Positions 801-22,620 of a DNA stretch of 64,000 nt are shown here, in pieces (position 1 is the first letter of the stretch; each line of letters begins with the position of its first letter). The position numbers and the translations under genes were made by a program. The DNA is from Trematomus loennbergii (taxonomy: Eukaryota > Chordata > Actinopteri > Perciformes > Nototheniidae). A model generated the notes under the pieces. It was not told the DNA's origin. It saw only the letters and a program-made list of their open reading frames with translations, and did no database searches. The stretch is from positions 25,460,898-25,524,897 of the forward strand of contig JAAOOA010000002.1 in NCBI GenBank assembly GCA_012861695.1. The letters are read 5' to 3'.

Positions 801-3083
801 TCGCGATGAAAGCAGTTAATAAAATATATCCAGGGGATGCATGCAGAGCTGTCATTGGCTGAGATAAGTCCGGCCGTGCGTCTCGACCAAGCGGCAAACT
901 CTGGGGAAGAGCCGGGACGCCAATGCGGAAGTGCCACAAACTGCAGTTCATATATTGGCCGATAGGCGCTGACTGCAGAAAGGAGCAATTTCCATAGAGC
1001 CCCATGTTAAAATGCCCAATTTCACAGCCTAAAAAAACATGTTTCTACCTATGGATCCAATAAATATTATTATGAATATAGTTAGATTCCACCTTCATGA
1101 TTATGGATCTGTGAGTGAATTGTTTTCTAACACGACCCTTTATTTATATTAGGTCTTAAAGTTTTTGCATAAATTAGGGCGTGGTCACATTGAGTGACAG
1201 CTCTGTCAGGTGACTGCTGCTGTTAGCTTTTTGTCTCTCTGCTAGCTGCTCCGTCCGTGAAGCTACAGGGACTCTGCCTGGTCAGTTCATCCAGGGAACA
1301 CAACTTGATCCCGGCCGTGTTTGTTTGTTCTTCATGCTTATATATCGGACTATTGTGACTCGCTCTGCGGTTAAAACAGACGGTGCATGAATGCCGTTTT
1401 GCGGTAAGTGAAATTCGAGTCAAACTTATCCTTGTTTTAATCCTTGTTTTATTTATGTTAAATTGTTGTTGTCGGTTAATTTTCCATTTTATTTATTAAG
1501 GTTTAAGATATCATTAGTCTTTTATTTTATTATTATCATGCTTGATGTTTACACTTTTCTGCATTTTATAAGGCAATATATACTTTTTTGTTTTTGTCTG
1601 TAGGCTACTTAGGTTATTAAATAGTTATTGTGTCAAAATATAGGAAATGTATTAATATTTTATTGTATAATCGGTACAGGAAATGACATAATTCAGAGCA
1701 CCACCTATTGGCCAAAGACCGCTGCCACCGGCATTGCGATCCATCTTCTGACAAAGTAAGTTGTGTCACTAAAGTCTGATGCATGATTTAATAATTGGGG
1801 CTTTTTTTTAAGCCTTTTCTCGCATAGTTCATCATACATAATGAACTGTTCTAAGTCTGAGAAATGCTTCCGCCATAATCAGCAAAGCAACATTAATGTG
1901 AAATTATTCTTGCGGGCGGCTAGCTAGCTAGCTCACGTTCAACATAAGCTTAAACTAGTTTAGCTACATTTATATCAGCTCATAAGTGGTGTGTGGAAAA
2001 TATTTGTCTTAATTACGGCTACATACGTCGGTGTTAAAGTGTGAGTTATACGTTATTTTAATCGCTTTTGTTTGACACATGACAGTGCTGCCGAGCGGAC
2101 ATTTAACATATGTTTGGGGGGGAGGGGCATAGTCCATGTGCACGGCCATGTGCTTGTTACGAGTCTGAAACAGGAAACACGTAAATGAACTCACTCAGTC
2201 TGTCTAAAGTAGTTAAACCGTCACAATGTGCATTTAAAAAAGCTAGTTTCACTACATAATTCACTTTTTCTGTTCTCTCCTGCAGCTCCTGTACCCACAC
2301 CACAAACCCATACACTGATCTACACCATCATAAAACCAACGGCACTTTTAAGAGCCAAACTCTCCCTATCTCCCTATCCAGCTCTCTTATATCTATCATC
2401 TATTTCTTTATTCACCCTTCTATCTATTCTGTGTACTTCTCTACTTTCCTGTGTTTGTCAGTCTGTCTGTTTGTAATCCTGTGTTAATCATGCCAGGTGG
2501 GTCTACAAAAAAGACATGTCCCTTCTGTCAGAACATTTTATTTTGTGCACAGAAGATCTGTGCACATTGCCTTAAGGAGCAGCCAAAAAAGCTGCGCCTT
2601 GAGAAGAAGCTCAAGCGGTTTGATGAGAAGCGAGAGGATTGGGTGTCTGGGCGGAAGAAGAACCACAACATTGCTTCCATCAAGGATGAAGCCATTGTCT
2701 TGGTATGTACACTTTTTACTGTATGTTAATGCCCGGACACACCAAGCTGACACCAAAGAACTGACACAGACGGACCCCCGACTGTTTGCCAATATATTGG
2801 GCCAGGATAAAGTTGAATGTTGTTTTTATATACATTTATTTCTTAATGATGTTTGTATCTTATTAACCAATATACACTTTGATATCAACTTCAAATATAG
2901 ATATTATTGCAAAGGTATTATTTAATATTCTCTTTTCTTTCAATTTTAAAACTACTCTTATCTTAACTTTCACAGCCAAGGGACACTATTTTAATTTAAC
3001 TTTCACATTTAAATAAACAGAGCACTTCCTTCACTTCCATGTTGTGTTCCATTCTTGCTTATGTACACACTTTTAGACATTAA

Positions 3084-3459
3084 AGGTAGGGTAGGTAAGT
3101 TTGAGAAACCAGCTTGAGTGTGCTAGAATTTGAAAATACACAACCGGAGAAAATCTGCCACTTCCTCACAGAGCCCCTCCTCCAACACACACGAACGCGC
3201 ACATGACCAATGAGGGCACGAGATAAGTTTGTGCACAGATGGAAGGCTGACAGGCAGGTAGGCCATCCAGTTATTTTAGCCGGGCCGGCTCAGATGATTG
3301 GTCGTGCTTTTTACAGTACTACGGCTTCCACAGATGACATTCTTTTATGGATTTTGTCAAAGCACTTCAGATATTCATTGCTATCGGGATGTTAAGAGCA
3401 TTCCATGGAATATAACAAGTGTATCTCGAGCCGGTTTCTCAAACGTACCTACCCCACCT
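3084..3459. mobile_element. TTAA-flanked MITE (left arm)
   Basis: Inverted termini start AGGTAGGGTAGGTAAGTTTG and end with the complement, ACCTACCCCACCT, each flanked by TTAA (3080-3083 and 3460-3463). TTAA targets are typical of the piggyBac and Kolobok superfamilies. There is no transposase. It lies in intron 1 of the unknown gene. A mirrored copy is in the right arm and a truncated one at 57117. Confidence 0.75.
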
Positions 3460-5065
3460 TTAATAAGACTACATCATTGTATGTTACTACTCTATATTAC
3501 TCTTACGACTGCAGCCACAACATACGGGAACGTTTTACATTGCAGCACGCAATTTCAATTTCAACAGTGTCAAGCTATGCTTGGATTGTGTTACATTTTT
3601 AATTATGCAATACTCATTGTGTACACAAGTGTTAACTGTTAATTGTTGAGTGGTCACACATTTGCATCTTATTGTACTTTAACTTTAAGATTATCAGGGT
3701 TTGAACTGGGACTCAGGATACTGATTTATTTGTATTTTGTGTTTGTCTATAAAATATTTTTCTGCTTCTACTGTGTAACCCTTCCTGGTAAATACATGAT
3801 TCTGCAAAAGCTAAACTCAGCATCTAGGTTTATGAATGGCATACAACTAGATGCTGTCATCAGTAATGTTATAGTTGTAGTTATATAGTTGTTTCCTTTC
3901 CATTTCTTTAAACAGTAAATATATTATTTTGTCATTACAGCTTGAGAAACTCCATGCCATTGGCTTTAAACCAGTGCTGCTTCTTGGCAAGGAGACCAGG
4001 AAGAAGGAGGTCAAATGTGAAATCCTAACCCCTCGCTGCACACTGACCGCCTATGCCCAGGATTACCTTGACAAGATAGGCACTTTTTATGAGTTCCTTT
4101 GTGAAGGTGAGATGCTTGCACTATATCTTCACAGTTCACAGTATTGTGTACACAAAATGTTTGTATCAATGTTAAACTCTTCTAGGGATGGTTCACCCCT
4201 AAAACATGTTCAGTCAACGAGTCCTTACCTCCCTGACAGTATAAACGTTGGAGAGCTTAACATTTCCTTATAACCAACACAGTTATATGGAATGAGTTTG
4301 GATCAACTCATTTAATAAAGTCAGTTAAGTTAACAACAACTTACAGCGACTGTTTTCAATCCATCCAAATCTTGTGGGACAACAACTTGATCCAGTATTT
4401 ATCCTTTGAGCCAGAAAGCAGTCATTCGAGCCATTTATTTGGGTTTGGCAAACTATATTTTTGTGAGACAACTAACACACATCCTTTCTACCTGTTAACT
4501 GTCACTATTTTTAGCTGCAAAGTATTACAAAAGTTGAAAGTAATTGCAAAATATTTAGGGATATGGACAACGTTTGACTGTTTATTATTTTAGCAAACTA
4601 CATACAATAAATACATTTGTAAACACTGAGTATGTAGCCTAATGAGACATGGCTTACTCTGCAGAGGGGACTTGTGGACATTTAACTGTTATTTATCAGG
4701 AAATAGGTAGGCAAGTTTACTTGAATTTGAAAAACCATTTTGGGGTATTGTGCTACCACTTGCGCATTCATTGTATACAAATTGAAAGTTGTTAATGTCA
4801 AGGTAGTTGGGTTTGATGACTGAAATGTAGTTTTAGGCTTGAGCCATCCCTTAAGCAATTTCCTTTTAGCAAACCGTTCCTAAACTGTTTGCTTTATCAA
4901 CGCCCAAAAGGGAGAAATGTTTTGAGGTTAATGGTAAGAGCACAATACATGAAGACGATCCCAGTTGACCACATATTCAGTTTGGCAGTTCTGTATTAAG
5001 GTCATGTTTCTCGGGTTGTAAACAAAAGCAGTTATCCAGTGCATCCAGAGGTCCCTTTACATTAC

Positions 5066-5112
5066 ATTTAGCAGACGTTTTTATCCAAAGCGACTTGCTA
5101 CTTATTTGATTG
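5066..5112 (-). repeat. L2-type LINE/SINE 3' tail remnant
   Basis: The complement reads AAGTCGCTTTGGATAAAAACG followed by TCTGCTAAATG. This is the 3' tail shared by fish L2-clade LINEs and many tRNA-derived SINEs. Only the tail survives. Confidence 0.6.
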
Positions 5113-5589
5113 CACTTATGCAAAACACGTTTGCGTCAGTCTTATCAATTCTGAACAAAATGTGTGGATGTAAATAATGTAAGGGAACATACATGCACAC
5201 GTCTATATGTTGTCTACCGACAAATTGACATATCACATCACATGGAATGTAGACACAAATCGGAAGAATAATATCGCAAAAACAAAACCATAAATAGTTG
5301 ACTGGATAAATACCACTATTACTGCTATTAACTTTGACTGCACACAGTCCTATGACATGACGAGTATATTTTTGACCCTGTCTGGAAACATACCTTAAGC
5401 ACGCTGTATTTCTTATTTCTAGATATATGAGTTAACCTCTTTGTCTTAAGCAAGTCAAGACCAACATTTGTTTAACTTGCACAGGTTGGACACAGGACTC
5501 CACTGGCCAGGGGTTGCGGAAGATCCTGAGGAAGAGACAGTCACGCTGAACCTCACACCCTGTGACCCATCTGAACCAGAAAACAACTG

Positions 5590-5875
5590 GCAGGAGGCAG
5601 GGACGTCAGAGACAAGCACCGTGCAGGTGGAGGTGCTGAAGACCCCCCCGTGAAGCAGTGTACCACCAAAGAGGTAGGGCAGGAGGCAGGGACGTCAGAG
5701 AGCCAGGTGCCAGAGACAAGCACTGTGCAGGTGGAGGTGCTGAAGACCCCCCCCCGTGAAGCAGTGTACCACCAAAGAGGTAGGGCAGGAGGCAGGGACG
5801 TCAGAGAGCCAGGTGCCAGAGACAAGCACCGTGCAGGTGGAGGTGCTGAAGACCCCCCCCCCGTGAAGCAGTGCA
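5590..5875 (+). repeat. coding minisatellite in exon 3 (left arm, about 3 units)
   Basis: A unit of about 105 bp beginning GTGAAGCAGTGTACCACC and ending in a poly-C tract is repeated about three times here and about twice in the right-arm copy (18075-18240). In frame, a unit with 8 C encodes 35 residues, so copy number changes protein length without shifting frame, whereas poly-C length changes do shift it. Confidence 0.7.
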
Positions 5876-6287
5876 CCATCATAGAGGTGGGGCAGGAGGA
5901 GCAGCCCCAGCGGGATGATCTGAGACAGGCTACCACCACGGAGGGGCCAGGTAATAAAATAGATAGATGGAATGGGAGGGATGAAACCCTCTTTAATGGT
6001 CACACACACAGCACACACAGTGACATTTGTTCTCTGAGATTTGCAGCTTTTATATTTATAAAAGTCAAGAGTGTTTTCTGATATCTTCCTAAAAGATTAT
6101 TGGAGGTAACTTGTTGACAAGTCATGCTTCTACAATATCTCAAAACACCTAATTGCACTTCTTGCATTTTGGGAATAATGATTGGTCCAATAGGTAAATA
6201 ATAATAACAACAATAGCTTAATCTAAATAACAATTTCACCTACAACTTCATAAATATGAAAGGAAAATGGGATACTTGGGTATGTGT

Positions 6288-7057
6288 ATATCCCCCCGGG
6301 GAGGAGGAAAAAAAAAACACTGACAAATGGTATTCCGTTGTTTTCTTTTACTTGAACGTGTAAAAAGGGCTCTTCAGGTAGAACAGTATTAATAATAGCA
6401 TAATTGAAATAAATTAAATAAATAGCCTACTTTATGTGTGTATGTATGGGTGTAGGCGAGAGCGCAGCCGGTTAAGGATTAGTCCTGCCGCCGAAAAAAC
6501 CCTTTCCGAGGGCACAGAGCACTGCGGAGCCCCTCAGCTAAATTAACCGCACTCTTCATCTCCCATTCACTATCGATATAATGGCAGGTTATGGTAACAT
6601 AGGATTCAGTTGTGAGTGCCGTCCACCCGTCGGTGGTTATCGACACCTTTGAGACAGTTGATAAGAGTACGGCCCGGGACCCTGTAATCTGGTTCCACGC
6701 TTGCCATAAACTCAAGGAAACCGCCTCCTTCCACGACGGAGAGGAGGGGGGAGGGGAGAGGGAGGGGCGGGGTCGGTGTGTACCAGGCTGCAGCAGCAGT
6801 CTGCACTCTGCGCTGCTGGCTTCCTCCAAGTTTACAGTAAAACAAACTGGTGGTGTGATCAATGGTCATTTACAATTATTAATACTATTACTATTATTAG
6901 CATTAGTCTATATTTTGGTTGAAACCAAACCAGGAAAAAAAGAAAAACATAAATATTAATAAAAAAATATATTAATAAAATCGATTTTTAAAAATAATAT
7001 TCGATTATGGAGACTGTAACGAATAATCGAATAATCGAATAATCGCTGGCATCCCTA
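6288..7057 (-). mobile_element. hAT transposon remnant (left arm only)
   Basis: The right arm lacks this insert and gives the empty site (TATATCC joined to TTAGGTAC). On the minus strand, 6479-6862 encodes a fragment with VSITTDGWTALTTESYVTI, typical of hAT/ZBED-type transposases. The right end, read on the minus strand, begins TAGGGATGCCAGCGATTATT, a hAT-type terminus. The other end (CCCCGGGGAGG) does not match, and no 8-bp duplication is visible, so that end is probably truncated. The element is inactive. Confidence 0.75.
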
Positions 7058-7380
7058 TTAGGTACTTGGATATAAATAAATATTAAACATTTAGAAAAAT
7101 ACAGTCTTTCATTCCTGAACAGCCATGTGGTTACTATATGGTTATACCTTTTTCACACAAAAATGCAAAGCAACAGCAGGCTTACTATACATTTGATAAA
7201 TCACAAAATAAAACTCATGTCATTTTGTTTACACACAGAAAGGGTCTTGCATTGTAGCGTTGGGCAGTAGGTCGATTACATCAAAATGATTTGGCACTTG
7301 TCCATATATTGTACGAGAGGTTGATATCATTAATATTGTGGTCTACCTAAAGCAATCCCTGACCCTAGGGTTTGAAAAGG

Positions 7381-7453
7381 GGTTTTTGTCACACAATGTA
7401 TCACTGTGGGAGCCGCTATATAGAGCACTGTGATACAACTCCATACAAAACTC
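7381..7453 (-). other. IGHD: IGHD-like segment, left arm (mirror of R-D6)
   Basis: The order on the plus strand is nonamer GGTTTTTGT (7381-7389), 12-bp spacer, heptamer CACTGTG (7402-7408), 17-bp core GGAGCCGCTATATAGAG (7409-7425), heptamer CACTGTG (7426-7432), 12-bp spacer and nonamer ACAAAACTC (7445-7453). The first RSS is perfect consensus. The second has one heptamer change at position 4 and two nonamer changes. Two 12-RSS facing outwards is the arrangement of heavy-chain D segments. The minus strand is inferred from D-like cores in the mirror arm; the symmetric signals do not fix the reading direction. Confidence 0.8.
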
Positions 7454-7971
7454 CACCCAGTACACTGACTGACATGACAACACACACATGTTGCTCTGTG
7501 TTTGTAATCTTATAATCTAATCTTGTAAAAGGAACCATCAGTGCAATAGTTTTCTAATCTTTTCTTTTCTTCATCTGTCGTGTTGCATATACACCTGAAC
7601 AATGGCTATAAATTATGGGAATGGTGCTAACAAAAGTGTGTAATATCCTCCTAAATTAAATGAGAAGCAGAATTACTCAAGCATGTAAGATCAAAAGGCT
7701 CTGACAGGATTATTCATATTTCAAACTGGGGATATTGTATTCAGGCATGGTGTCCAAAGTGTGGGTTAACCCAGCAGAAAGGTGTTATTAACACTGTATG
7801 TTGGTAGGTCAAGCTTTTTTCTGAAACATTTTTTTTAAACATAATTCCTCATATATTTAATTTAAACTGCCACTTGTACATTTAATATCACCTTGCTTTA
7901 GATTCAAGGGATTTGGGGGATTACCTGATCTTCTCTTTCTTGAGGCACAGTGATATTGAGTATTTTAGTTA

Positions 7972-8396
7972 CAGGGTTTGTAAGGGTCATTAAAAACCTG
8001 GAAAAGTCATGGAAATGTAACTAAAGTTGCATCAAATATAATTAGAATTTGATCTAATCGCCGAAATAGTAATACTATAATGATAAACACTGTATCGTAT
8101 AGTAATGAAACGTAAAATGGCATTTAACTGTCGAGGTATTTTGCTGGTGAGATTTTTACAATCACGCCCTCTAGTCTACAGTTGCTTTAGCCCGTAGATG
8201 CTAGTAAGCCTACTATTTGATTTGTTTTAGATAGGCACAACATGTTTCATATGCAGACCTTATTTTCCTGTTCCATGTTAAAAAACAATTTTCAGTGGTA
8301 CCGCTGAGAAAAAGTAATATTTTTGGTCATGGAAAAGTAGGTAAAGGTCATGGAAAAGTCATTGAAAATCATTGGTGAAAAAGTGTGTGAACCCTG
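7972..8396. mobile_element. non-autonomous DNA transposon with CAGGGTT termini (left arm)
   Basis: It starts CAGGGTTTGTAAGGG and ends GTGAACCCTG, and internally carries several GGTCATGGAAAAGTCA-like motifs. It sits beside a D-like segment and is mirrored at 15656-16085. The second copy of the right-arm duplication (about 17060) lacks it and gives the empty site. It is probably a hAT-like MITE; the duplication is ambiguous. Confidence 0.6.
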
Positions 8397-8403
8397 TAGT
8401 TCA

Positions 8404-8473
8404 GGTTTTTGTATTGCCCAATATCACTGTGGTTGCCATCCCATCCACAGTGCCACACGCTCATACAAAAACC
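8404..8473 (-). other. IGHD: IGHD-like segment, left arm (mirror of R-D3), perfect RSS
   Basis: Nonamer GGTTTTTGT (8404-8412), 12-bp spacer, heptamer CACTGTG (8425-8431), 14-bp core GTTGCCATCCCATC (8432-8445), heptamer CACAGTG (8446-8452), 12-bp spacer, nonamer ACAAAAACC (8465-8473). Both RSS match the consensus heptamer and nonamer at every position and both spacers are exactly 12 bp. The right-arm partner is 15579-15648. Confidence 0.87.
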
Positions 8474-8781
8474 GTTGCTTGATACAGTGCATTGTATTTC
8501 TCTCCCTTTTTTCTGCTCTTATTTTTCACCGACTTTCTCTTTTGGTGTTATTTATGTATCTTTTTTAAACATCAAAGCAAATTCCTTTTACCATCCTTAC
8601 CAATTCTGAATCGTTTTTTGTAAGGTAATTTATAAGCCAATGTTGCCTAACAAAATCCTATGTAGTTGATCACATTATTTTCAATTATCATACATCTGTG
8701 CTTCTCATGAGGAGGTTATGTAGGTCACATATCTCACCTCCTGGTTTCCTTATTAGCACCACATGTCCTCCAGTGGAAAGG

Positions 8782-8803
8782 GGTTTTTGTCACACAATGT
8801 ATC
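8782..8803 (-). other. stranded 12-RSS nonamer and spacer (remnant of D2, left arm)
   Basis: Nonamer GGTTTTTGT (8782-8790) and spacer bases up to ATC, ending in the duplicated octamer AATGTATC (8796-8803), abut the hAT end CAGGGCTCTCGA. This is the mirror of 15248-15269. The matching D core and heptamers are missing from the left arm through the 512-bp deletion near 9475. Confidence 0.75.
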
Positions 8804-9475
8804 CAGGGCTCTCGACTAACTTTTTTCACCATCCTCCCGGAACCGTCCCGAAATACAATCTAAGCCGTCCCGAAATTAATGTGGACCGTCCCGAATTTAA
8901 AATATTTGTTTTTTCTACATTATCATTAGTTAAAATCATTCAAAGTGACCTTTAACATAATAAAACATCATACAAATCATTAGATGATAATTCATCAACC
9001 TTTTTATTTGAGTCAATCAGTCAAACACATAAACAAGGCCAAATATATTTAAAAAAAACACACAAGCGAGAAAGTTGCTCTAATATTGAATCCAACCAAG
9101 TCCCATCCGATTAACAACAAAATCCAACACTCTGTCCTGAAGACAGAACCCAGAGTAACCACTAACCAGGATGACAGTCTGTAACACAGTCAGGAGACCT
9201 TTACAAACTGCCCCGCCCCCTCGCACACAGGAGAGAGCTCTCTCGTCTGGATTGGAAAGATCGAAAATAAGATCGAAAATACATCATAGACGCATTTTGT
9301 AGTCTTATTGCATATTAGAAACGGAGTTGGCGAAACTAAAACTGCAATATAATGTTCATGTAGCAATAATACATATGACATATATGTTTTAAATGTCTCG
9401 ACCACTGTCTTTAATAATTCCGGCCCGGGGCCCGTTTAATACCGGGGCTCGGTACCCATCCCTACATGGGGAGAG
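8804..9475. mobile_element. hAT-type element, left-arm copy, one end deleted
   Basis: This is the mirror of 14115-15247. The end adjoining the RSS remnant, CAGGGCTCTCGA, is present. The opposite end was lost with a 512-bp deletion whose junction lies near 9475-9490 (AGCATATAGCACACTGG). A nested fragment near 9410-9465, read on the minus strand, starts TAGGGATGGGTACCGAG, another hAT-like terminus. No intact transposase was found. Confidence 0.7.
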
Positions 9476-10096
9476 GCGCAGCATATAGCACACTGGCTGT
9501 CACAACACTCACACTTGCTTTGAACCCTTTCATTTTAGTTGATGATTTTACGATTTAATCCTAGAACAGAATCACCTGTACAAGTGTCTCCTTTTGTTTA
9601 GTTTTTTTAATAATGTAAAAAATATGAGTTTCACTAATACAGTTATAAAAGAAAATGCATATACAAACTAAGTATACATGTGAATGAGAAACACATTGCA
9701 TGAAACATGGAAAATAGGCTCTGACAGAAGATTACATATTTTCATACTCATTATATTTTGGTACAGGTATATCATCCTGTTTATCATATTTAAAAATACT
9801 GCCCAGTCTTTTATAGAACAGAATATATCTTTGTTGTCATCATACAAAGTTTAACGACATTTCTTTGGCATCTCTCACTGCAGTAATGAAAATAGACACA
9901 AATAAATAAATAAATAAAAGCAGATGTAGCAGCAATGACAGGGTAATGCAATAAAATGTTATAACAATGTGCATATTATTAATTCTTAAGTACTACGTTT
10001 GTGAAATGTATTCAAACTCACTCTATTTTCTTCAAGTCACAGCTTCCTATAATTGTTTGCATATCTTTCATCTAAAGTTTACGGAGCTTTGCCAGA

Positions 10097-10166
10097 GGTT
10101 TTTGTAACTGTGTCAATCACTGTGGCTGCCCCCGTAGACACAGTGAAACACCACTGTGCAAAAACC
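10097..10166 (-). other. IGHD: IGHD-like segment, left arm (mirror of R-D1)
   Basis: Nonamer GGTTTTTGT (10097-10105), 12-bp spacer, heptamer CACTGTG (10118-10124), 14-bp core GCTGCCCCCGTAGA (10125-10138), heptamer CACAGTG (10139-10145), 12-bp spacer, nonamer GCAAAAACC (10158-10166, one mismatch). Read on the minus strand the core is TCTACGGGGGCAGC, a G-rich core like known heavy-chain D segments. Confidence 0.85.
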
Positions 10167-11192
10167 TGTGCCACTGTAGCTCATCCCCTTCTCTGAAGTA
10201 CACGGCTAATCAAATGGCTACTTTTAAAATGATTCATTTAGATAATTAATAAAAAGAAAAATGGGATTGTAATAACCACTGTACATACCTTTTGTATTTT
10301 TATTAATTCACATTGTTCAATGGCCGTACTAAATGACTTTGAACATGCAGAATATTCCAATAATGAAAGTCTTTTAATATTTTTTCAGACACATGATACT
10401 GTTGATGAGATTTTGTATAGTGCTACTATTATACTGTATGGTATGGCAGCCCACTTTTTACAGTAAATTGACCTCAATATCAACAAAAATTTGAAGAAAT
10501 TATTAACCTTAATTCTCATGGCTTTTAAATATTAAGAAAGTTACAGCATAAACATGCATAAACCTTTACCAAAGTGTAGCTGCTTGTCCCTTATTTACAA
10601 TAAACAGCAACACAACAACTATTCTTCTTTTCATTTAAATAATTATGATTTAAAATTATTCCTGGACCGTTTTAAGATTTGAATAATAATCACATTTTTA
10701 AGATTTAGTTAAATGTTTGGGAATGTAGGCTATCAGGGTTTTTTTCAGCAGCAGTAACATTTATATATATATTCTTCTGAGCCTGAAAATAATATTATTT
10801 TTAATAAGCTTCACATGGACTGGGGCAAAGAACTGTTGCAAATACTGTCGGATCACACTTTCTTGTAATTGCGATGTAGTTTTAGACAGAAATGTGCTGT
10901 TTTACAGAGTGGGGTCAGTACACTAGAAGCCTGCAGATGGCAGCAAAGCACTATCTTTAAATTAAAGATCACCACTGTCGAGGCACCTAGAGATCAGGCT
11001 GCTGCTTTGTTTGCTTACTATCATCAATCACTTTTTGAAATGTTTTTTGATTGTCTTCCTAGTCTGGTCCTATTCATTAAATATAAAGTATTTTAGGCCA
11101 AAAAATGTATTGGATTGTAATAATAACCACTGTAGATACTTAAACAAATAACATTGTTCAATGGCAGGACTTACTAACTAGTTGGATTTTGA

Positions 11193-12015
11193 AGTATGGG
11201 TGGTGAGGAGTTCCTTGAGGTAGGGAGGGGCAGTGCCATGGACACACTGGTGGGTGAGGACGGAGACCTTGAATTCTATCCTCAGTTCTACGGGTAGCCA
11301 GTGCAGTGCTTTAAGGATGGGGGTGATGTGGTCATATTTGCGCACCCTCATCAGGATCCTAGCAGCGCTGTTCTGTATGTACTGGAGCTTCCGGATGCTT
11401 TTGTTAGGGATCCCGATGAGGAGTGCATTGCAGTAGTCCAGCCTGGAGGAGACAAAGGCGTGGACCAGCTTTTCGGCGTCGGACAGAGTGAGTGTGGGGC
11501 GGAGTTTGGCGATGTTCCTGAGGTGATAGAAGGAGTTCTTGCACAGCTGTTTAATGTGGGCCTCAAAGGTGAGATGGGCGTCCATTTTAACACCCAGGTT
11601 GGTGACTATTGAGGTGAGGGTAATGTCCTGGCCGGAGAAGGTGATGGTGGTGATGGTGGATGACTGAACCTGGTGTGGGGTGCCAACTATAATGGCTTCG
11701 GTCTTGGAGCTGTTGAGTTTCAGGAAGTTTTGCTTCATCCACGCCTGTATCTCCTCCAGGCAGGCAGTGAGTGTGGGTGAAGGCAGGGCTGCAGAGGAGG
11801 TGGGGTTGATCCTGAGGTACAGTTGGGTATCATCAGCGTAACAGTGGAATGATACTCCATGTCGGCTGATGATAGAGCCAAGGGGGAGCATGTAGAGTGT
11901 GAAGAGGGTGGGGCCGAGAACTGATCCCTGAGGGACACCACAGGTGACGTTGTGGGTACCCGACTCAGCCTCGCCCAAGGAGACGTACTCTGTTCTCCCG
12001 GTGAGGTAAGATCTG
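11193..12015 (-). mobile_element. LINE reverse-transcriptase fragment in the palindrome centre
   Basis: The minus strand has an open frame of 295 residues (12065-11178), of which the LINE part carries GVPQGSVLGP, the catalytic YADDTQLY box, LNSSKTEAI and the DYCNALLIGIPNKSI / LQYIQNSAARIL region. These mark the C-terminal half of a non-LTR reverse transcriptase of the L2/CR1/Rex1 group. The N-terminal half, endonuclease and 3' tail are absent. The first residues of the open frame (12015-12065) are read through flanking DNA. It occupies the spacer exactly between the two palindrome arms and has no inverted partner. Confidence 0.85.
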
Positions 12016-12343
12016 AAAAAAAAATACCTTATATTTAACGAATAGGACCAGACTGGGAAGAACATTGCTTAGAATTCCGCATTTTATGACCCAGTAAACC
12101 CACAAAAAGTGATGATAGTAAGCAAACAAAGCAGAGTAGACTGACCTCCAGGTGCCTCGACAGTGGTGACCTTTGAAGTTAAAGATAGCGATATGCTGCC
12201 ATCTACAGGCTTCTATGTGCACTGACCCCACTCTGTAAAAAAGAGCACATTTCTATCATTTAACATTTAACTGCAAGAAACACATATTTTCACCATTATA
12301 TCAAAGTTAGTCAAATACTTTCATCAATGGAATATTCTGCATG
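12016..12343. repeat. diverged extra copy of the arm-proximal repeat module
   Basis: The sequence resembles 12440-12690 in direct orientation: shared blocks include AATAGGACCAGACT, GATGATAGTAAGCAAACAAA, GGTGCCTCGACAGTGGTGA and CTGACCCCACTCTGTAAAA. It is visibly more diverged from that copy than the palindrome arms are from each other, so it predates arm formation or escaped homogenisation. Confidence 0.6.
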
Positions 12344-13372
12344 TTCAAAATCCAACTAGTTAGTAAGTCCTGCCATTGAACAATGTTATTTGTTTAAGTA
12401 TCTACAGTGGTTATTATTACAATCCAATACATTTTTTGGCCTAAAATACTTTATATTTAATGAATAGGACCAGACTAGGAAGACAATCAAAAAACATTTC
12501 AAAAAGTGATTGATGATAGTAAGCAAACAAAGCAGCAGCCTGATCTCTAGGTGCCTCGACAGTGGTGATCTTTTAATTTAAAGATAGTGCTTTGCTGCCA
12601 TCTGCAGGCTTCTAGTGTACTGACCCCACTCTGTAAAACAGCACATTTCTGTCTAAAACTACATCGCAATTACAAGAAAGTGTGATCCGACAGTATTTGC
12701 AACAGTTCTTTGCCCCAGTCCATGTGAAGCTTATTAAAAATAATATTATTTTCAGGCTCAGAAGAATATATATATAAATGTTACTGCTGCTGAAAAAAAA
12801 CCCTGATAGCCTACATTCCCAAACATTTAACTAAATCTTAAAAATGTGATTATTATTCAAATCTTAAAACGGTCCAGGAATAATTTTAAATCATAATTAT
12901 TTAAATGAAAAGAAGAATAGTTGTTGTGTTGCTGTTTATTGTAAATAAGGGACAAGCAGCTACACTTTGGTAAAGGTTTATGCATGTTTATGCTGTAACT
13001 TTCTTAATATTTAAAAGCCATGAGAATTAAGGTTAATAATTTCTTCAAATTTTTGTTGATATTGAGGTCAATTTACTGTAAAAAGTGGGCTGCCATACCA
13101 TACAGTATAATAGTAGCACTATACAAAATCTCATCAACAGTATCATGTGTCTGAAAAAATATTAAAAGACTTTCATTATTGGAATATTCTGCATGTTCAA
13201 AGTCATTTAGTACGGCCATTGAACAATGTGAATTAATAAAAATACAAAAGGTATGTACAGTGGTTATTACAATCCCATTTTTCTTTTTATTAATTATCTA
13301 AATGAATCATTTTAAAAGTAGCCATTTTATTAGCCGTGTACTTCAGAGAAGGGGATGAGCTACAGTGGCACA

Positions 13373-13442
13373 GGTTTTTGCACAGTGGTGTTTCACTGTG
13401 TCTACGGGGGCAGCCACAGTGATTGACACAGTTACAAAAACC
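13373..13442 (+). other. IGHD: IGHD-like segment R-D1
   Basis: Nonamer GGTTTTTGC (13373-13381, one mismatch), 12-bp spacer, heptamer CACTGTG (13394-13400), 14-bp core TCTACGGGGGCAGC (13401-13414), heptamer CACAGTG (13415-13421), 12-bp spacer, nonamer ACAAAAACC (13434-13442). It is the most central D of the right arm and mirrors 10097-10166. Confidence 0.86.
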
Positions 13443-14058
13443 TCTGGCAAAGCTCCGTAAACTTTAGATGAAAGATATGCAAACAATTATAGGAAGCTGT
13501 GACTTGAAGAAAATAGAGTGAGTTTGAATACATTTCACAAACGTAGTACTTAAGAATTAATAATATGCACATTGTTATAACATTTTATTGCATTACCCTG
13601 TCATTGCTGCTACATCTGCTTTTATTTATTTATTTATTTGTGTCTATTTTCATTACTGCAGTGAGAGATGCCAAAGAAATGTCGTTAAACTTTGTATGAT
13701 GACAACAAAGATATATTCTGTTCTATAAAAGACTGGGCAGTATTTTTAAATATGATAAACAGGATGATATACCTGTACCAAAATATAATGAGTATGAAAA
13801 TATGTAATCTTCTGTCAGAGCCTATTTTCCATGTTTCATGCAATGTGTTTCTCATTCACATGTATACTTAGTTTGTATATGCATTTTCTTTTATAACTGT
13901 ATTAGTGAAACTCATATTTTTTACATTATTAAAAAAACTAAACAAAAGGAGACACTTGTACAGGTGATTCTGTTCTAGGATTAAATCGTAAAATCATCAA
14001 CTAAAATGAAAGGGTTCAAAGCAAGTGTGAGTGTTGTGACAGCCAGTGTGCTGGGTGG

Positions 14059-14107
14059 AGTTTTTGTATGGAGTCATATCACAGTGCAGAATATAGCAAC
14101 CACAGTG
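14059..14107 (+). other. IGHD: IGHD-like segment R-D2 with 3' RSS split by a transposon
   Basis: Nonamer AGTTTTTGT (14059-14067), 12-bp spacer, heptamer CACAGTG (14080-14086; position-4 variant in this orientation), 14-bp core CAGAATATAGCAAC (14087-14100), heptamer CACAGTG (14101-14107). The 3' spacer is interrupted after seven bases by the hAT element at 14115. The remaining spacer and the nonamer ACAAAAACC reappear at 15248-15269. As it stands the 3' signal has no correctly spaced nonamer, so 3' joining should be crippled. Confidence 0.8.
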
Positions 14108-14114
14108 ATACATT

Positions 14115-15247
14115 CAGGGCTCGAGCTTAAGGACCTCCCGTCGTCCCGGGGCCGAAGAAAATCGGGTCGGGGAGGATACAAATTAATTTTGGGACGAATT
14201 TGGGACGAGAGTTAAAATAAAAATACCCTGCTAACTCTACTACGAACGGCGATGAAAATGAAACTGACTGCACGTTTTGTGTAGCACACAGTTATTAAAC
14301 CTCCTTGTCAACATAAACACACACAAAGCATTTAGCAACCCGCGAAATACACACACACACAGTACGTATAGCTACAGCTGTCAGCCAGCCGTACAGCTGT
14401 GATGTAACTACCATTTTTTTACCCCGGAGCGGTGCGGAGAAACGAAACTTAACTTATGAAGCAGCTTTTGACGGCGCGCTATGCATGGGGCACCCGAGAG
14501 GGGGTTTCCAGACATGTCATTGCAGCTGAGATGAGAACTCTCCATCGCATGTAGTCCTTAGCAATATGCTGCGCCTCTCCCCATGTAGGGATGGGTACCG
14601 AGCCCCGGTATTAAACGGGCCCCGGGCCGGAATTATTAAAGACAGTGGTAGAGACATTTAAAACATATATGTCATATGTATTATTGCTACATGAACATTA
14701 TATTGCAGTTTTAGTTTCGCCAACTCCGTTTCTAATATGCAATAAGACTACAAAATGCGTCTATGATGTATTTTCGATCTTATTTTCGATCTTTCCAATC
14801 CAGACGAGAGAGCTCTCTCCTGTGTGCGAGGGGGCGGGGCAGTTTGTAAAGGTCTCCTGACTGTGTTACAGACTGTCATCCTGGTTAGTGGTTACTCTGG
14901 GTTCTGTCTTCAGGACAGAGTGTTGGATTTTGTTGTTAATCGGATGGGACTTGATTGGATTCAATATTAGAGCAACTTTCTCGCTTGTGTGTTTTTTTTA
15001 AATATATTTGGCCTTTGTTTATGTGTTTGACTGATTGACTCAAATAAAAAGGTTGATGAATTATCATCTAATGATTTGTATGATGTTTTATTTATGTTAA
15101 AGGTCACTTTGAATGATTTTAACTAATGATAATGTAGAAAAACAAATATTTTAAATTCGGGACGGTCCACATTAATTTCGGGACGGCTTAGATTGTATTT
15201 CGGGACGGTTCCGGGAGGATGGTGAAAAAAGTTAGTCGAGAGCCCTG
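14115..15247. mobile_element. hAT-type element inserted in the R-D2 recombination signal
   Basis: The 1133-bp insert starts CAGGGCTCGAG and ends CGAGAGCCCTG. It is flanked by an exact 8-bp duplication, GATACATT (14107-14114 and 15248-15255), the hAT hallmark. Removing the insert and one octamer restores a 12-bp spacer identical to that of R-D4 and R-D6. A nested hAT-like end (TAGGGATGGGTACCGAG) lies at about 14587. No intact transposase was found. Confidence 0.85.
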
Positions 15248-15260
15248 GATACATTGTGTG

Positions 15261-15269
15261 ACAAAAACC
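15261..15269 (+). other. displaced R-D2 3' nonamer
   Basis: ACAAAAACC preceded by GATACATTGTGTG is the second half of the R-D2 3' signal, now about 1.15 kb away from its heptamer. Confidence 0.8.
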
Positions 15270-15578
15270 CCTTTCCACTGGAGGACATGTGGTGCTAATA
15301 AGGAAACCAGGAGGTGAGATATGTGACCTACATAACCTCCTCATGAAAAGCACAGATGTATGATAATTGAAAATAATGTGATCAACTACATAGGATTTTG
15401 TTAGGCAACATTGGCTTATAAATTACCTTACAAAAAACGATTCAGAATTTGGTAAGGATGGTAAAAGGAATTTGCTTTGATGTTTAAAAAAGATACATAA
15501 ATAACACCAAAAGAGAAAGTCGGTGAAAAATAAGAGCAGAAAAAAGGGAGAGAAATACAATGCACTGTATCAAGCAAC

Positions 15579-15648
15579 GGTTTTTGTATGAGCGTGTGGC
15601 ACTGTGGATGGGATGGCAACCACAGTGATATTGGGCAATACAAAAACC
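15579..15648 (+). other. IGHD: IGHD-like segment R-D3, perfect RSS
   Basis: Nonamer GGTTTTTGT (15579-15587), 12-bp spacer, heptamer CACTGTG (15600-15606), 14-bp core GATGGGATGGCAAC (15607-15620), heptamer CACAGTG (15621-15627), 12-bp spacer, nonamer ACAAAAACC (15640-15648). All four signal elements match consensus. Confidence 0.88.
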
Positions 15649-15655
15649 TGAACTA

Positions 15656-16085
15656 CAGGGTTCACACACTTTTTCACCAATGATTTTCAATTACTTTTCC
15701 ATGACCTTTACCTCATTTTCCATGACCAAAAATATTACTTTTTCTCAGCGGTACCACTGAAAATTGTTTATTTTAACATGGAACAGGAAAATAAGGTCTG
15801 CATATGAAACATGTTGTGCCTATCTAAAACAAATCAAATAGTAGGCTTACTAGCATCTACGGGCTAAAGCAACTGTAGACTAGAGGGCGTGATTGTAAAA
15901 ATCTCACCAGCAAAATACCTCGACAGTTAAATGCCATTTTACGTTTCATTACTATACGATACAGTGTTTATTATCATTATAGTATTACTATTTCGGCGAT
16001 TAGATCAAATTCTAATTATATTTGATGCAACTTTAGTTACATTTCCATGACTTTTCCAGGTTTTTAATGACCCTTACAAACCCTG
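15656..16085. mobile_element. non-autonomous DNA transposon with CAGGGTT termini (right arm)
   Basis: It runs from CAGGGTTCACACAC to CAAACCCTG between R-D3 and R-D4. The paralogous position after R-D5 (about 17063) lacks it, so it inserted into one copy of the duplicated D unit. It mirrors 7972-8396. Confidence 0.6.
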
Positions 16086-16605
16086 TAACTAAAATACTCA
16101 ATATCACTGTGCCTCAAGAAAGAGAAGATCAGGTAATCCCCCCAAATCCCTTGAATCTAAAGCAAGGTGATATTAAATGTACAAGTGGCAGTTTAAATTA
16201 AATATATGAGGAATTATGTTTAAAAAAAATGTTTCAGAAAAAAGCTTGACCTACCAACATACAGTGTTAATAACACCTTTCTGCTGGGTTAACCCACACT
16301 TTGGACACCATGCCTGAATACAATATCCCCAGTTTGAAATATGAATAATCCTGTCAGAGCCTTTTGATCTTACATGCTTGAGTAATTCTGCTTCTCATTT
16401 AATTTAGGAGGATATTACACACTTTTGTTAGCACCATTCCCATAATTTATAGCCATTGTTCAGGTGTATATGCAACACGACAGATGAAGAAAAGAAAAGA
16501 TTAGAAAACTATTGCTCTGATGGTTCCTTTTACAAGATTAGATTATAAGATTACAAACACAGAGCAACATGTGTGTGTTGTCATGTCAGTCAGTGTACTG
16601 GGTGG

Positions 16606-16673
16606 AGTTTTTGTATGGAGTCATATCACAGTGCAGTATAGCAACCACAGTGATACATTGTGTGACAAAAACC
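16606..16673 (+). other. IGHD: IGHD-like segment R-D4
   Basis: Nonamer AGTTTTTGT (16606-16614), 12-bp spacer, heptamer CACAGTG (16627-16633, position-4 variant in this orientation), 12-bp core CAGTATAGCAAC (16634-16645), heptamer CACAGTG (16646-16652), 12-bp spacer, nonamer ACAAAAACC (16665-16673). The core differs from R-D2 by loss of two bases. It has no left-arm partner. Confidence 0.85.
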
Positions 16674-16990
16674 CCTTTCCACTGGAGGACATGTGGTGCT
16701 AATAAGGAAACCAGGAGGTGAGATATGTGACCTACATAACCTCCTCATGAGAAGCACAGATGTATGATAATTGAAAATAATGTGATCAATTACATAGGAT
16801 TTTGTTAGGCAACATTGGCTTATAAATTACCTTACAAAAAACTAGTCAGAATTTGGTAAGGATGGTAAAAGGAATTTGCTTTGATGTTTAAATGTACATA
16901 AATAACAGCAAAAGAGAAAGCAAAAAATAAAAGATAAAAGCAGATATTGGAAAAAAAGGGAGAGAAATACAATGCACTGTATCAAGCAAG

Positions 16991-17060
16991 GGTTTTTGTA
17001 TGAGCATGTAGCACTGTGGATCGTATGGGCACCACAGTGATATTGGGCAATACAAAAACC
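16991..17060 (+). other. IGHD: IGHD-like segment R-D5
   Basis: Nonamer GGTTTTTGT (16991-16999), 12-bp spacer, heptamer CACTGTG (17012-17018), 14-bp core GATCGTATGGGCAC (17019-17032), heptamer CACAGTG (17033-17039), 12-bp spacer, nonamer ACAAAAACC (17052-17060). It is a diverged paralogue of R-D3 with intact signals. It has no left-arm partner. Confidence 0.87.
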
Positions 17061-17253
17061 TGAACTAAAATACTCAATATCACTGTGCGTCAAGAAAGAG
17101 AAGATCAGGTAATCCCCCCAAATCCCTTGAATCTAAAGCAAGGTGATATTAAAAAACTATTGCACTGATGGTTCCTTTTACAAGATTAGATTATAAGATT
17201 ACAAACACAGAGCAACATGTGTGTGTTGTCATGTCAGTCAGTGTACTGGGTGG

Positions 17254-17326
17254 AGTTTTTGTATGGAGTTGTATCACAGTGCTCTATATAGCGGCTCCCA
17301 CAGTGATACATTGTGTGACAAAAACC
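17254..17326 (+). other. IGHD: IGHD-like segment R-D6
   Basis: Nonamer AGTTTTTGT (17254-17262), 12-bp spacer, heptamer CACAGTG (17275-17281, position-4 variant), 17-bp core CTCTATATAGCGGCTCC (17282-17298), heptamer CACAGTG (17299-17305), 12-bp spacer, nonamer ACAAAAACC (17318-17326). It is the outermost D of the right arm. J segments would be expected beyond it on the plus strand but none was seen. Confidence 0.85.
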
Positions 17327-18729
17327 CCTTTTCAAACCCTAGGGTCAGGGATTGCTTTAGGTAGACCACAATATTAATGATATCAACCTCTCGTACAATA
17401 TATGGACAAGTGCCAAATCATTTTGATGTAATCGACCTACTGCCCAACGCTACAATGCAAGACCCTTTCTGTGTGTAAACAAAATGACATGAGTTTTATT
17501 TTGTGATTTATCAAATGTATAGTAAGCCTGCTGTTGCTTTGCATTTTTGTGTGAAAAAGGTATAACCATATAGTAACCACATGTCTGTTCAGGAATGAAA
17601 GACTGTATTTTTCTAAATGTTTAATATTTATTTATATCCAAGTACCTAAGGATATACACATACCCAAGTATCCCATTTTCCTTTCATATTTATGAAGTTG
17701 TAGGTGAAATTGTTATTTAGATTAAGCTATTGTTGTTATTATTATTTACCTATTGGACCAATCATTATTCCCAAAAATGCAAGAAGTGCAATTAGGTGTT
17801 TTGAGATATTGTAGAAGCATGACTTGTCAACAAGTTACCTACAATAATCTTTTAGGAAGATATCGGAAAACACTCTTGACTTTTATAAATATAAAAGCTG
17901 CAAATCTCAGAGAACAATGTCACTGTGTGTGCTGTGTGTGTGACCATTAAAGAGGGTTTCATCCCTCCCATTCGATCTATCTATTTTATTACCTGGCCCC
18001 TCCGTGGTGGTAGCCTGTCTCAGATCATCCCGCTGGGGCTGCTCCTCCTGCCCCACCTCTATGATGTGCACTGCTTCACGGGGGGGGTCTTCAGCACCTC
18101 CACCTGCACGGTGCTTGTCTCTGGCACCTGGCTCTCTGACGTCCCTGCCTCCTGCCCTACCTCTTTGGTGGTACACTGCTTCACGGGGGGGGTCTTCAGC
18201 ACCTCCACCTGCACAGTGCTTGTCTCTGACGTCCCTGCCTCCTGCCAGTTGTTTTCTGGTTCAGATGGGTCACAGGGTGTGAGGTTCAGCGTGACTGTCT
18301 CTTCCTCAGGATCTTCCGCAACCCCCTGGCCAGTGGAGTCCTGTGTCCAACCTGTGCAAGTTAAACAAATGTTGGTCTTGACTTGCTTAAGACAAAGAGG
18401 TTAACTCATATATCTAGAAATAAGAAATACAGCGTGCTTAAGGTATGTTCCAGACAGGGTCAAAAATATACTCGTCATGTCATAGGACTGTGTGCAGTCA
18501 AAGTTAATAGCAGTAATAGTGGTATTTATCCAGTCAACCATTTATGGTTTTGTTTTTGCGATATTATTCTTCCGATTTGTGTCTACATTCCATGTGATGT
18601 GATATGTCAATTTGTCGGTAGACAACATATAGACGTGTGCATGTATGTTCCCTTACATTATTTACATCCACACATTTTGTTCAGAATTGATAAGACTGAC
18701 GCAAACGTGTTTTGCATAAGTGCAATCAA

Positions 18730-18780
18730 ATAAGTAGCAAGTCGCTTTGGATAAAAACGTCTGCTAAATGTAATGTAAAG
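18730..18780 (+). repeat. L2-type 3' tail remnant (right arm)
   Basis: AAGTCGCTTTGGATAAAAACG followed by TCTGCTAAATG mirrors the tail at 5066-5112. Confidence 0.6.
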
Positions 18781-20346
18781 GGACCTCTGGATGCACTGGA
18801 TAACTGCTTTTGTTTACAACCCGAGAAACATGACCTTAATACAGAACTGCCAAACTGAATATGTGGTCAACTGGGATCGTCTTCATGTATTGTGCTCTTA
18901 CCATTAACCTCAAAACATTTCTCCCTTTTGGGCGTTGATAAAGCAAACAGTTTAGGAACGGTTTGCTAAAAGGAAATTGCTTAAGGGATGGCTCAAGCCT
19001 AAAACTACATTTCAGTCATCAAACCCAACTACCTTGACATTAACAACTTTCAATTTGTATACAATGAATGCGCAAGTGGTAGCACAATACCCCAAAATGG
19101 TTTTTCAAATTCAAGTAAACTTGCCTACCTATTTCCTGATAAATAACAGTTAAATGTCCACAAGTCCCCTCTGCAGAGTAAGCCATGTCTCATTAGGCTA
19201 CATACTCAGTGTTTAAAAATGTATTTATTGTATGTAGTTTGCTAAAATAATAAACAGTCAAACGTTGTCCATATCCCTAAATATTTTGCAGCTAAAAATA
19301 GTGACAGTTAACAGGTAGAAAGGATGTGTGTTAGTTGTCTCACAAAAATATAGTTTGCCAAACCCAAATAAATGGCTCGAATGACTGCTTTCTGGCTCAA
19401 AGGATAAATACTGGATCAAGTTGTTGTCCCACAAGATTTGGATGGATTGAAAACAGTCGCTGTAAGTTGTTGTTAACTTAACTGACTTTATTAAATGAGT
19501 TGATCCAAACTCATTCCATATAACTGTGTTGGTTATAAGGAAATGTTAAGCTCTCCAACGTTTATACTGTCAGGGAGGTAAGGACTCGTTGACTGAACAT
19601 GTTTTAGGGGTGAACCATCCCTAGAAGAGTTTAACATTGATACAAACATTTTGTGTACACAATACTGTGAACTGTGAAGATATAGTGCAAGCATCTCACC
19701 TTCACAAAGGAACTCATAAAAAGTGCCTATCTTGTCAAGGTAATCCTGGGCATAGGCGGTCAGTGTGCAGCGAGGGGTTAGGATTTCACATTTGACCTCC
19801 TTCTTCCTGGTCTCCTTGCCAAGAAGCAGCACTGGTTTAAAGCCAATGGCATGGAGTTTCTCAAGCTGTAATGACAAAATAATATATTTACTGTTTAAAG
19901 AAATGGAAAGGAAACAACTATATAACTACAACTATAACATTACTGATGACAGCATCTAGTTGTATGCCATTCATAAACCTAGATGCTGAGTTTAGCTTTT
20001 GCAGAATCATGTATTTACCAGGAAGGGTTACACAGTAGAAGCAGAAAATATTTATAGACAAACACAAAATACAAATAAATCAGTATCCTGAGTCCCAGTT
20101 CAAACCCTGATAATCTTAAAGTTAAAGTACAATAAGATGCAAATGTGTGACCACTCAACAATTAACAGTTAACACTTGTGTACACAATGAGTATTGCATA
20201 ATTAAAAATGTAACACAATCCAAGCATAGCTTGACACTGTTGAAATTGAAATTGCGTGCTGCAATGTAAAACGTTCCCGTATGTTGTGGCTGCAGTCGTA
20301 AGAGTAATATAGAGTAGTAACATACAATGATGTAGTCTTATTAAAG

Positions 20347-20722
20347 GTGGGGTAGGTACGTTTGAGAAACCGGCTCGAGATACACTTGTTATATTCCATG
20401 GAATGCTCTTAACATCCCGATAGCAATGAATATCTGAAGTGCTTTGACAAAAGATCCATAAAAGAATGTCATCTGTGGAAGCCGTAGTACTGTAAAAAGC
20501 ACGACCAATCATCTGAGCCGGCCCGGCTAAAATAACTGGATGGCCTACCTGCCTGTCAGCCTTCCATCTGTGCACAAACTTATCTCGTGCCCTCATTGGT
20601 CATGTGCGTGTTCGTGTGTGTTGGAGGAGGGGCTCTGTGAGGAAGTGGCAGATTTTCTCCGGTTGTGTATTTTCAAATTCTAGCACACTCAAGCTGGTTT
20701 CTCAAACTTACCTACCCTACCT
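20347..20722. mobile_element. TTAA-flanked MITE (right arm)
   Basis: This is the mirrored copy of the element at 3084-3459, flanked by TTAA on both sides (20343-20346 and 20723-20726). Its presence at the same place in both arms shows it predates arm duplication or was copied between arms. Confidence 0.72.
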
Positions 20723-22299
20723 TTAAAGTCTAAAAGTGTGTACATAAGCAAGAATGGAACACAACATGGAAGTGAAGGAAGTGCTCTGTTTATTTAAATG
20801 TGAAAGTTAAATTAAAATAGTGTCCCTTGGCTGTGAAAGTTAAGATAAGAGTAGTTTTAAAATTGAAAGAAAAGAGAATATTAAATAATACCTTTGCAAT
20901 AATATCTATATTTGAAGTTGATATCAAAGTGTATATTGGTTAATAAGATACAAACATCATTAAGAAATAAATGTATATAAAAACAACATTCAACTTTATC
21001 CTGGCCCAATATATTGGCAAACAGTCGGGGGTCCGTCTGTGTCAGTTCTTTGGTGTCAGCTTGGTGTGTCCGGGCATTAACATACAGTAAAAAGTGTACA
21101 TACCAAGACAATGGCTTCATCCTTGATGGAAGCAATGTTGTGGTTCTTCTTCCGCCCAGACACCCAATCCTCTCGCTTCTCATCAAACCGCTTGAGCTTC
21201 TTCTCAAGGCGCAGCTTTTTTGGCTGCTCCTTAAGGCAATGTGCACAGATCTTCTGTGCACAAAATAAAATGTTCTGACAGAAGGGACATGTCTTTTTTG
21301 TAGACCCACCTGGCATGATTAACACAGGATTACAAACAGACAGACTGACAAACACAGGAAAGTAGAGAAGTACACAGAATAGATAGAAGGGTGAATAAAG
21401 AAATAGATGATAGATATAAGAGAGCTGGATAGGGAGATAGGGAGAGTTTGGCTCTTAAAAGTGCCGTTGGTTTTATGATGGTGTAGATCAGTGTATGGGT
21501 TTGTGGTGTGGGTACAGGAGCTGCAGGAGAGAACAGAAAAAGTGAATTATGTAGTGAAACTAGCTTTTTTAAATGCACATTGTGACGGTTTAACTACTTT
21601 AGACAGACTGAGTGAGTTCATTTACGTGTTTCCTGTTTCAGACTCGTAACAAGCACATGGCCGTGCACATGGACTATGCCCCTCCCCCCCAAACATGTGT
21701 TAAATGTCCGCTCGGCAGCACTGTCATGTGTCAAACAAAAGCGATTAAAATAACGTATAACTCACACTTTAACACCGACGTATGTAGCCGTAATTAAGAC
21801 AAATATTTTCCACACACCACTTATGAGCTGATATAAATGTAGCTAAACTAGTTTAAGCTTATGTTGAACGTGAGCTAGCTAGCTAGCCGCCCGCAAGAAT
21901 AATTTCACATTAATGTTGCTTTGCTGATTATGGCGGAAGCATTTCTCAGACTTAGAACAGTTCATTATGTATGATGAACTATGCGAGAAAAGGCTTAAAA
22001 AAAAGCCCCAATTATTAAATCATGCATCAGACTTTAGTGACACAACTTACTTTGTCAGAAGATGGATCGCAATGCCGGTGGCAGCGGTCTTTGGCCAATA
22101 GGTGGTGCTCTGAATTATGTCATTTCCTGTACCGATTATACAATAAAATATTAATACATTTCCTATATTTTGACACAATAACTATTTAATAACCTAAGTA
22201 GCCTACAGACAAAAACAAAAAAGTATATATTGCCTTATAAAATGCAGAAAAGTGTAAACATCAAGCATGATAATAATAAAATAAAAGACTAATGATATC

Positions 22300-22620
22300 T
22301 TAAACCTTAATAAATAAAATGGAAAATTAACCGACAACAACAATTTAACATAAATAAAACAAGGATTAAAACAAGGATAAGTTTGACTCAATGTTGTGTA
22401 AAGTACCCGTTATGGTTATAAAAATTAATTAAAAAAAAAAAAAAAACATTGAAAATAATACAGCTTCCGGTTTCCGACGGTCTCCCTTCTCCTGGCAAAT
22501 ATCCTAAACCTTAATAAATAAAATGGACAATTGATCGACAATAACAATTTAACATAAACAAAACAAGGATAAGTTTGACTCAATGTTATGTAAAGTACCC
22601 GTTATGGTTAAAAAAAATAA
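22300..22620. repeat. tandem repeat (about 202 bp) spanning the palindrome's right end
   Basis: AAACCTTAATAAATAAAATGG ... GTAAAGTACCCGTTATGG occurs at about 22301-22418 and again at about 22503-22608. The first copy straddles the palindrome boundary, so the outer edge falls inside a tandem repeat. Confidence 0.65.

Follow-up and report, generated by a model that had tools for sequence, protein, structure and literature searches.

Candidate IGHD-type diversity segments in two mirrored arms of a Trematomus loennbergii contig

A 64,000-nucleotide stretch of the genome of the notothenioid fish Trematomus loennbergii (GenBank assembly GCA_012861695.1, contig JAAOOA010000002.1, positions 25,460,898 to 25,524,897; hereafter the window) carries, between positions 7381 and 17326, nine short units built like the diversity (D) segments of an immunoglobulin heavy-chain (IGH) locus. 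Three of them lie on the - strand and six on the + strand, in the left and right arms, respectively, of an inverted repeat (Table 1). Each unit consists of a nonamer, a 12-bp spacer, a heptamer, a core of 12, 14 or 17 bp, a second heptamer, a second 12-bp spacer and a second nonamer, with the two signals facing outward. Eight of the nine are complete. An initial annotation, made from the sequence alone, had described nine such units, six to the right and three to the left, and all of them were located where it had placed them. Its count of three units that agree with the consensus throughout was likewise reproduced (8404-8473, 15579-15648 and 16991-17060).

Table 1. Features of the mirrored region (window coordinates; signal scores are consensus matches)
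Feature	Position	Strand	Description
Inverted repeat, left arm	1413..11193	-	pairs with 12344-22392; self-BLAST, main pieces 98.5-99.8% identical
D unit L-B	7381..7453	-	core CTCTATATAGCGGCTCC on - strand; 5' signal 13/16, 3' signal 16/16
D unit L-A	8404..8473	-	core GATGGGATGGCAAC; 32/32 signal positions match
D unit L-C	10097..10166	-	core TCTACGGGGGCAGC; signals 15/16 and 16/16
Asymmetric spacer between arms, ~1.15 kb	11194..12343		self-BLAST, Pfam
Inverted repeat, right arm	12344..22392	+	pairs with 1413-11193; self-BLAST and arm alignment
D unit R-C	13373..13442	+	core TCTACGGGGGCAGC; signals 15/16 and 16/16
D unit R-B1	14059..14128	+	core CAGAATATAGCAAC; 5' signal 14/16; 3' nonamer displaced by the 14115-15247 insertion (CAGGGCTC / GAGCCCTG ends)
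D unit R-A1	15579..15648	+	core GATGGGATGGCAAC; 32/32 signal positions match
D unit R-B2	16606..16673	+	core CAGTATAGCAAC; signals 14/16 and 16/16
Right-arm-only stretch, 649 bp, about one B-A pair (extra D pair)	16608..17256	+	arm alignment, unit alignment
D unit R-A2	16991..17060	+	core GATCGTATGGGCAC; 32/32 signal positions match
D unit R-B3	17254..17326	+	core CTCTATATAGCGGCTCC; signals 14/16 and 16/16

Signals, cores and classes of the D-like units

The signals were scored against a consensus of the recombination signal sequence (RSS), comprising the heptamer and the nonamer. In 16 of the 18 signals at least 14 of the 16 positions match, and in every one of these the spacer is exactly 12 bp long. 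Thirty first-order Markov sequences contain on average 0.07 spacer-12 sites of this quality, against the 16 observed. When spacers of 8 to 30 bp were scanned in the window, no site with at least 14 matches was found at any of the 22 lengths other than 12. With a laxer cut-off of 12/16, spacer 12 yields 21 sites (4 of them outside the units) against a chance mean of 2.6, while spacer 23 yields 5 against 3.5. When up to 5 mismatches are allowed over the 32 positions, the window contains 8 complete paired units, and 200 first-order Markov sequences contain 0. The same scan detected none beyond the nine-unit region anywhere in the 64 kb. Both signals reach at least 14/16 in seven of the nine units. 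On the D strand, the 3' signal is perfect in eight units and the 5' signal in three.

The second unit of the right arm, R-B1 (R-D2 in the initial annotation), retains its 3' heptamer and the first 7 bases of the spacer. It lacks the 3' nonamer because the insertion follows directly upon these bases, at 14115; an interruption of this signal by inserted DNA was also part of the initial description. The transposon-like insertion with CAGGGCTC / GAGCCCTG ends occupies 14115-15247 in the right arm; its left-arm copy, at 8804-9489, has one such end only.

The units sort into three classes, A, B and C. They follow the order C-B-A-B-A-B in the right arm, while the left arm holds one C, one A and one B. 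The heptamers and nonamers are common to the classes, whereas the flanks, like the spacers and cores, are unrelated among them. Thus, A1 and B3 differ at 2 of 32 heptamer and nonamer positions but at 14 of 24 spacer positions (Fisher p = 4e-5). The corresponding figures are 1/32 and 16/24 for C and A1 (p = 2e-7) and 3/32 and 12/24 for C and B3 (p = 2e-3), it being understood that the conservation of heptamers and nonamers is partly ascertained, because the units were located by those very motifs. Of 14 aligned core positions, 8 differ between A1 and B3, 7 between C and A1 and 6 between C and B3.

There are six distinct cores. All six are open in the frame that is flush with the 3' heptamer, where they encode YGGS, EYSN, WDGN, QYSN, SYGH and LYSGS, i.e. 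peptides rich in Tyr, Gly, Ser and Asn. The three B cores have a stop in another frame, and some of the alternative forward frames are hydrophobic (IVWA, LYIAA). When the cores are read in reverse, a hydrophobic open frame is present in four of the six (VAIF, VAIL, VAIP, AAPV).

Within 15579-17326, the cores of tandem copies have diverged far more than their near flanks, while their heptamers and nonamers are identical, an observation limited to two pairs. Between R-B2 and R-B3, the cores show one gap and 4 differences over 12 aligned positions, compared with 4 of 134 positions upstream and none of 33 downstream. R-A1 and R-A2 differ at 4 of 14 core positions, at 17 of 356 positions plus 3 gaps upstream and at none of 35 downstream. 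Editing of the D ends by RAG in the germline was considered as the source of this pattern and set aside: selection, or conversion between D segments, explains the two pairs equally well.

The inverted repeat

The nine units are part of a near-identical inverted repeat that extends well past the D region and that the initial annotation, in its account of the D segments, left out. Alignment of the arms reveals 22 substitutions in 8,874 aligned bases (0.25%), 8 of them transitions and 14 transversions, together with 18 small gaps. Five further gaps are at least 15 bp long. The left arm is without 511 and 649 bp, and the right arm without 764, 105 and 29 bp. The 511 bp absent from the left arm take in the inner B unit as well as the beginning of the insertion. 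The spacer between the arms contains a fragment of a reverse transcriptase of the long interspersed nuclear element (LINE) type (11178-12068, - strand; Pfam RVT_1, E=3e-17) and an older, partial copy of arm sequence, about 87% identical (12110-12254; self-BLAST).

The mirror can be explained about equally well by an inverted duplication that is either very recent or gene-converted and by a head-to-head join of two haplotypes. In the second case the mirror would be an artefact of assembly and the genome would have a single D cluster, with 3-6 segments per haplotype, an outcome to which we give somewhat less than an even chance. The low divergence of the arms, with its 14 transversions to 8 transitions and its 18 small gaps, is what allelic difference combined with long-read error might produce, and the large indels, one of which amounts to a B-A pair, resemble haplotype variants. 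However, the asymmetric 1.15-kb spacer, with its LINE fragment and its older copy of arm sequence, would not be expected from a simple fold-back. It must be noted that an artefact of this kind is compatible with the identification of the units as IGHD segments. An inverted repeat made by RAG is not proposed, because the aligned edges of the repeat (1413, 11193, 12344 and 22392) miss the RSS sites listed here.

Identity of the units and content of the window

It appears highly probable, from their sequence, that the units represent diversity segments of the IGHD type in the germline of a bony fish. This estimate covers build and descent only; the orphon explanation (see below) and the mis-assembly explanation stand beside it. 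The identification, which was already that of the initial annotation, is supported by the 12-bp-spacer signals that face outward on both sides of the units, by their clustering, by the short (12-17 bp), variable and open cores, and by 3' signals that are stronger than the 5' ones. That one or more of the segments contribute to the heavy-chain repertoire is given about an even chance.

Several observations weigh against the IGHD assignment or against use of the segments. The conservation of the signals is in part ascertained, as stated above. The weakest intact signal, the D-strand 5' signal of L-B (7426-7453), matches at only 13 of 16 positions, and R-B1 is broken by an insertion; both would be expected under weak constraint. 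None of the core sequences was found in the literature searched, which is no test of their use. Strict motifs for a joining (J) segment and for framework region 3 of a variable (V) segment gave no match in the 64 kb, nor did a J segment with an RSS spacer of 22-24 bp. A profile built from 120 fish VH proteins reached no better than E=0.55 against the window. Pfam searches of 50 open reading frames (ORFs) of the window, 46 of which came from a set of 81 with a suitable Cys-Trp/Phe-Cys pattern, detected no immunoglobulin domain.

Other searches of the window gave a similar result. The six loose W-G-x-G matches all lack a CACNGTG heptamer within the 90 bases upstream. A human-type VH aligned by tblastn at E=2.7 at best. 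The 120 fish VH proteins, out of 1,168 matches, aligned by tblastn at E=0.030 at best, with a 32-residue piece that contains a stop. No notothenioid name occurs among these 120 listed matches, and no notothenioid sequences of complementarity-determining region 3 (CDR3) were found for comparison. Candidate immunoglobulin domains, namely a C1-like motif at 40,771 (- strand), four Cys-Trp/Phe-Cys matches and one further match in an ORF of a copia element, were rejected as unlike immunoglobulin by eye. As to the J and constant-region (C) exons that, according to the initial annotation, might be looked for within 50 kb, the searches made detected neither J nor C inside the 64-kb window. Only 7.4 kb separate the nearest D from the left edge of the window, so that J segments could lie just outside it.

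An alternative is that the cluster is an orphon, that is, a D-only island that was copied from the IGH locus or stranded by the loss of J and C, and that takes no part in antibody assembly. This explanation, which is compatible with descent from IGHD segments, has a substantial likelihood, if one a little short of even. The searches of the 64 kb detected neither V nor J nor C, the right flank consists of pieces of HERC-like genes and a copia element, and an insertion interrupts one of the units. A precedent is provided by the ten human IGHD orphons of chromosome 15 (PMC7555362). On the other hand, decay of the units is slight, because in seven of the nine both signals score at least 14/16, and in three of these neither side shows a mismatch. 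Moreover, the window stops 7.4 kb to the left of the first D, and a J could be just beyond.

RSSs presumably derive from transposon ends, and transposon-like insertions do occur among the units. A dispersed transposon family, or one of miniature inverted-repeat transposable elements, with RSS-like ends arising by chance is nonetheless very unlikely to account for the units. Only the heptamers and nonamers are shared among classes A, B and C, while spacers, cores and flanks are not, which disfavours a single dispersed repeat; within the window this alternative was rejected on that ground. A shared interior and shared spacers, as a dispersed family would have, are not seen: 12-16 of 24 spacer positions and 6-8 of 14 core positions differ between classes, as against 1-3 of 32 signal positions. 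Duplication rather than one dispersed repeat, as initially claimed, is thus sustained within the window. The pattern of an all-consensus unit had no match in viral and prokaryote contigs, a result with little bearing on fish. T-cell receptor D segments (TRBD or TRDD), in which short cores likewise stand between two RSSs, can be dismissed almost entirely on spacer length, since TRBD and TRDD carry a 23-bp spacer on one side whereas all 16 strong signals here have a spacer of 12 and none with 14 or more matches has one of 22-24.

The remainder of the window, from about 23,000 to 64,000, consists to a large extent of duplicated blocks that are some 90-97% identical, several of them with RCC1 or HECT domains (HERC-like). 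Examples of such pairs are 27081-28316 with 44699-45940 and 37401-38648 with 57472-58723. An RCC1 ORF (27,522-27,878) has 67 protein matches, and the 9 with organism names are all from teleosts. Among the papers listed in a literature search, titles and abstract openings mention no HERC gene as a neighbour of teleost IGH. A copia-type retrotransposon occupies 46,093-49,996. Gag, zinc knuckle and integrase domains are encoded by its first long ORF, and its second (48614-49996) looks like a reverse transcriptase by eye. A tandem array of units of about 20 bp, translated as SISQNTTAFHK-like runs, is found at 51539-51892 and 54832-55212, the two being inverted to each other.

Each arm of the inverted repeat contains one copy of a small Cys-rich ORF (MPGGSTKKTCPFCQ...; 2352-2729 and 21077-21454), which has relatives in notothenioids, Centropristis and cyprinids. 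The left-arm copy has 20 matches, 11 of which are from notothenioids (Pagothenia, Chaenocephalus, Dissostichus) and 3 from other fish; over 71 residues counted from its Met it is identical to a protein of Pagothenia borchgrevinki. These matches and those of the RCC1 ORF point to a teleost, probably notothenioid-like, source of the sequence. The Cys-rich ORF is possibly a multicopy or transposon-linked gene. The ORF that overlaps it, 2488-2925, has no Pfam match.

Proposed recombination and comparison with known systems

The cluster probably arose from a few ancestral D segments by local duplication, which gave classes A, B and C and a tandem repeat of one B-A pair. It would then have come to lie in the two mirrored arms that are seen in the assembled window. 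In mouse, D segments are flanked by 12-RSSs, and VH and JH by 23-RSSs; RAG joins D to JH first and then VH to DJH (PMC11153149). By analogy with this well-known course of V(D)J recombination, a 12-RSS of one of the present D segments would be paired by RAG with a 23-RSS of a JH and thereafter with that of a VH, direct joining of VH to JH being barred under the 12/23 rule. As a 12-RSS flanks each D at either end, an inverted D should still be a substrate: its J-facing signal would be used and the reverse complement of its core contributed. An inverted array need therefore not be dead. Since four of the six cores have a hydrophobic open frame when read in reverse, inverted use could leave a mark in CDR3, although some of the other forward frames are hydrophobic as well.

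If real and working, the mirror would constitute a natural pair of divergent D arrays whose segments serve RAG in either orientation. It might, for example, supply J-C clusters on either side or bring reverse-complement D sequences into the repertoire. We consider such a working mirror improbable. The layout carries little weight ahead of support from raw reads. A real mirror would be a natural experiment on whether a D is used by RAG through its J-facing signal regardless of orientation, a question addressed earlier with engineered mouse alleles (PMC11153149). The near-identical arms also show a shift of D copy number by a unit of two D segments, a step in the diversification of the fish heavy-chain locus. 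If, instead, the mirror is a fold of the assembly, it calls for caution in the annotation of fish immune loci.

Parallels are known from other teleosts. In Atlantic salmon, 25 IGHD segments are described, the spacers being 12 bp long on either side (PMC2996982). As in the present window, these form clusters with a nonamer, a 12-bp spacer and a heptamer on each side of the D. Some of the salmon segments lie beside an inverted, expressed C-tau gene. Unlike here, the salmon D groups accompany C-mu or C-tau genes, and a mirrored, D-only pair is not described in the available part of that account. Inverted D segments are also present in zone 5 of the much-duplicated IGH locus of medaka (PMC3141427). 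The medaka segments, however, accompany C-delta exons at an assembly gap, whereas no C exon was found in the present window and its two D arrays are oppositely oriented.

Human IGHD orphons at 15q11.2 (PMC7555362) similarly lie outside the main locus. Their orphon status has been mapped, while the present cluster is known from the 64-kb window alone. In mouse, an inverted DQ52 inserted upstream is reported to recombine through its JH-facing signal, and deletional joints have been reported from an inverted D in that position (PMC11153149). That D is single and engineered, in contrast to the natural array considered here.

In the literature searched, to the extent that its text was available, a mirrored pair made up of D segments only was not found. 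Clusters of IGHD segments, and D segments in inverted orientation, have been described before in teleosts, as have IGHD orphons in human, and the segments themselves are of an ordinary, known kind. What would set the present cluster apart from these systems is its mirrored layout, which would be unusual if verified by reads.

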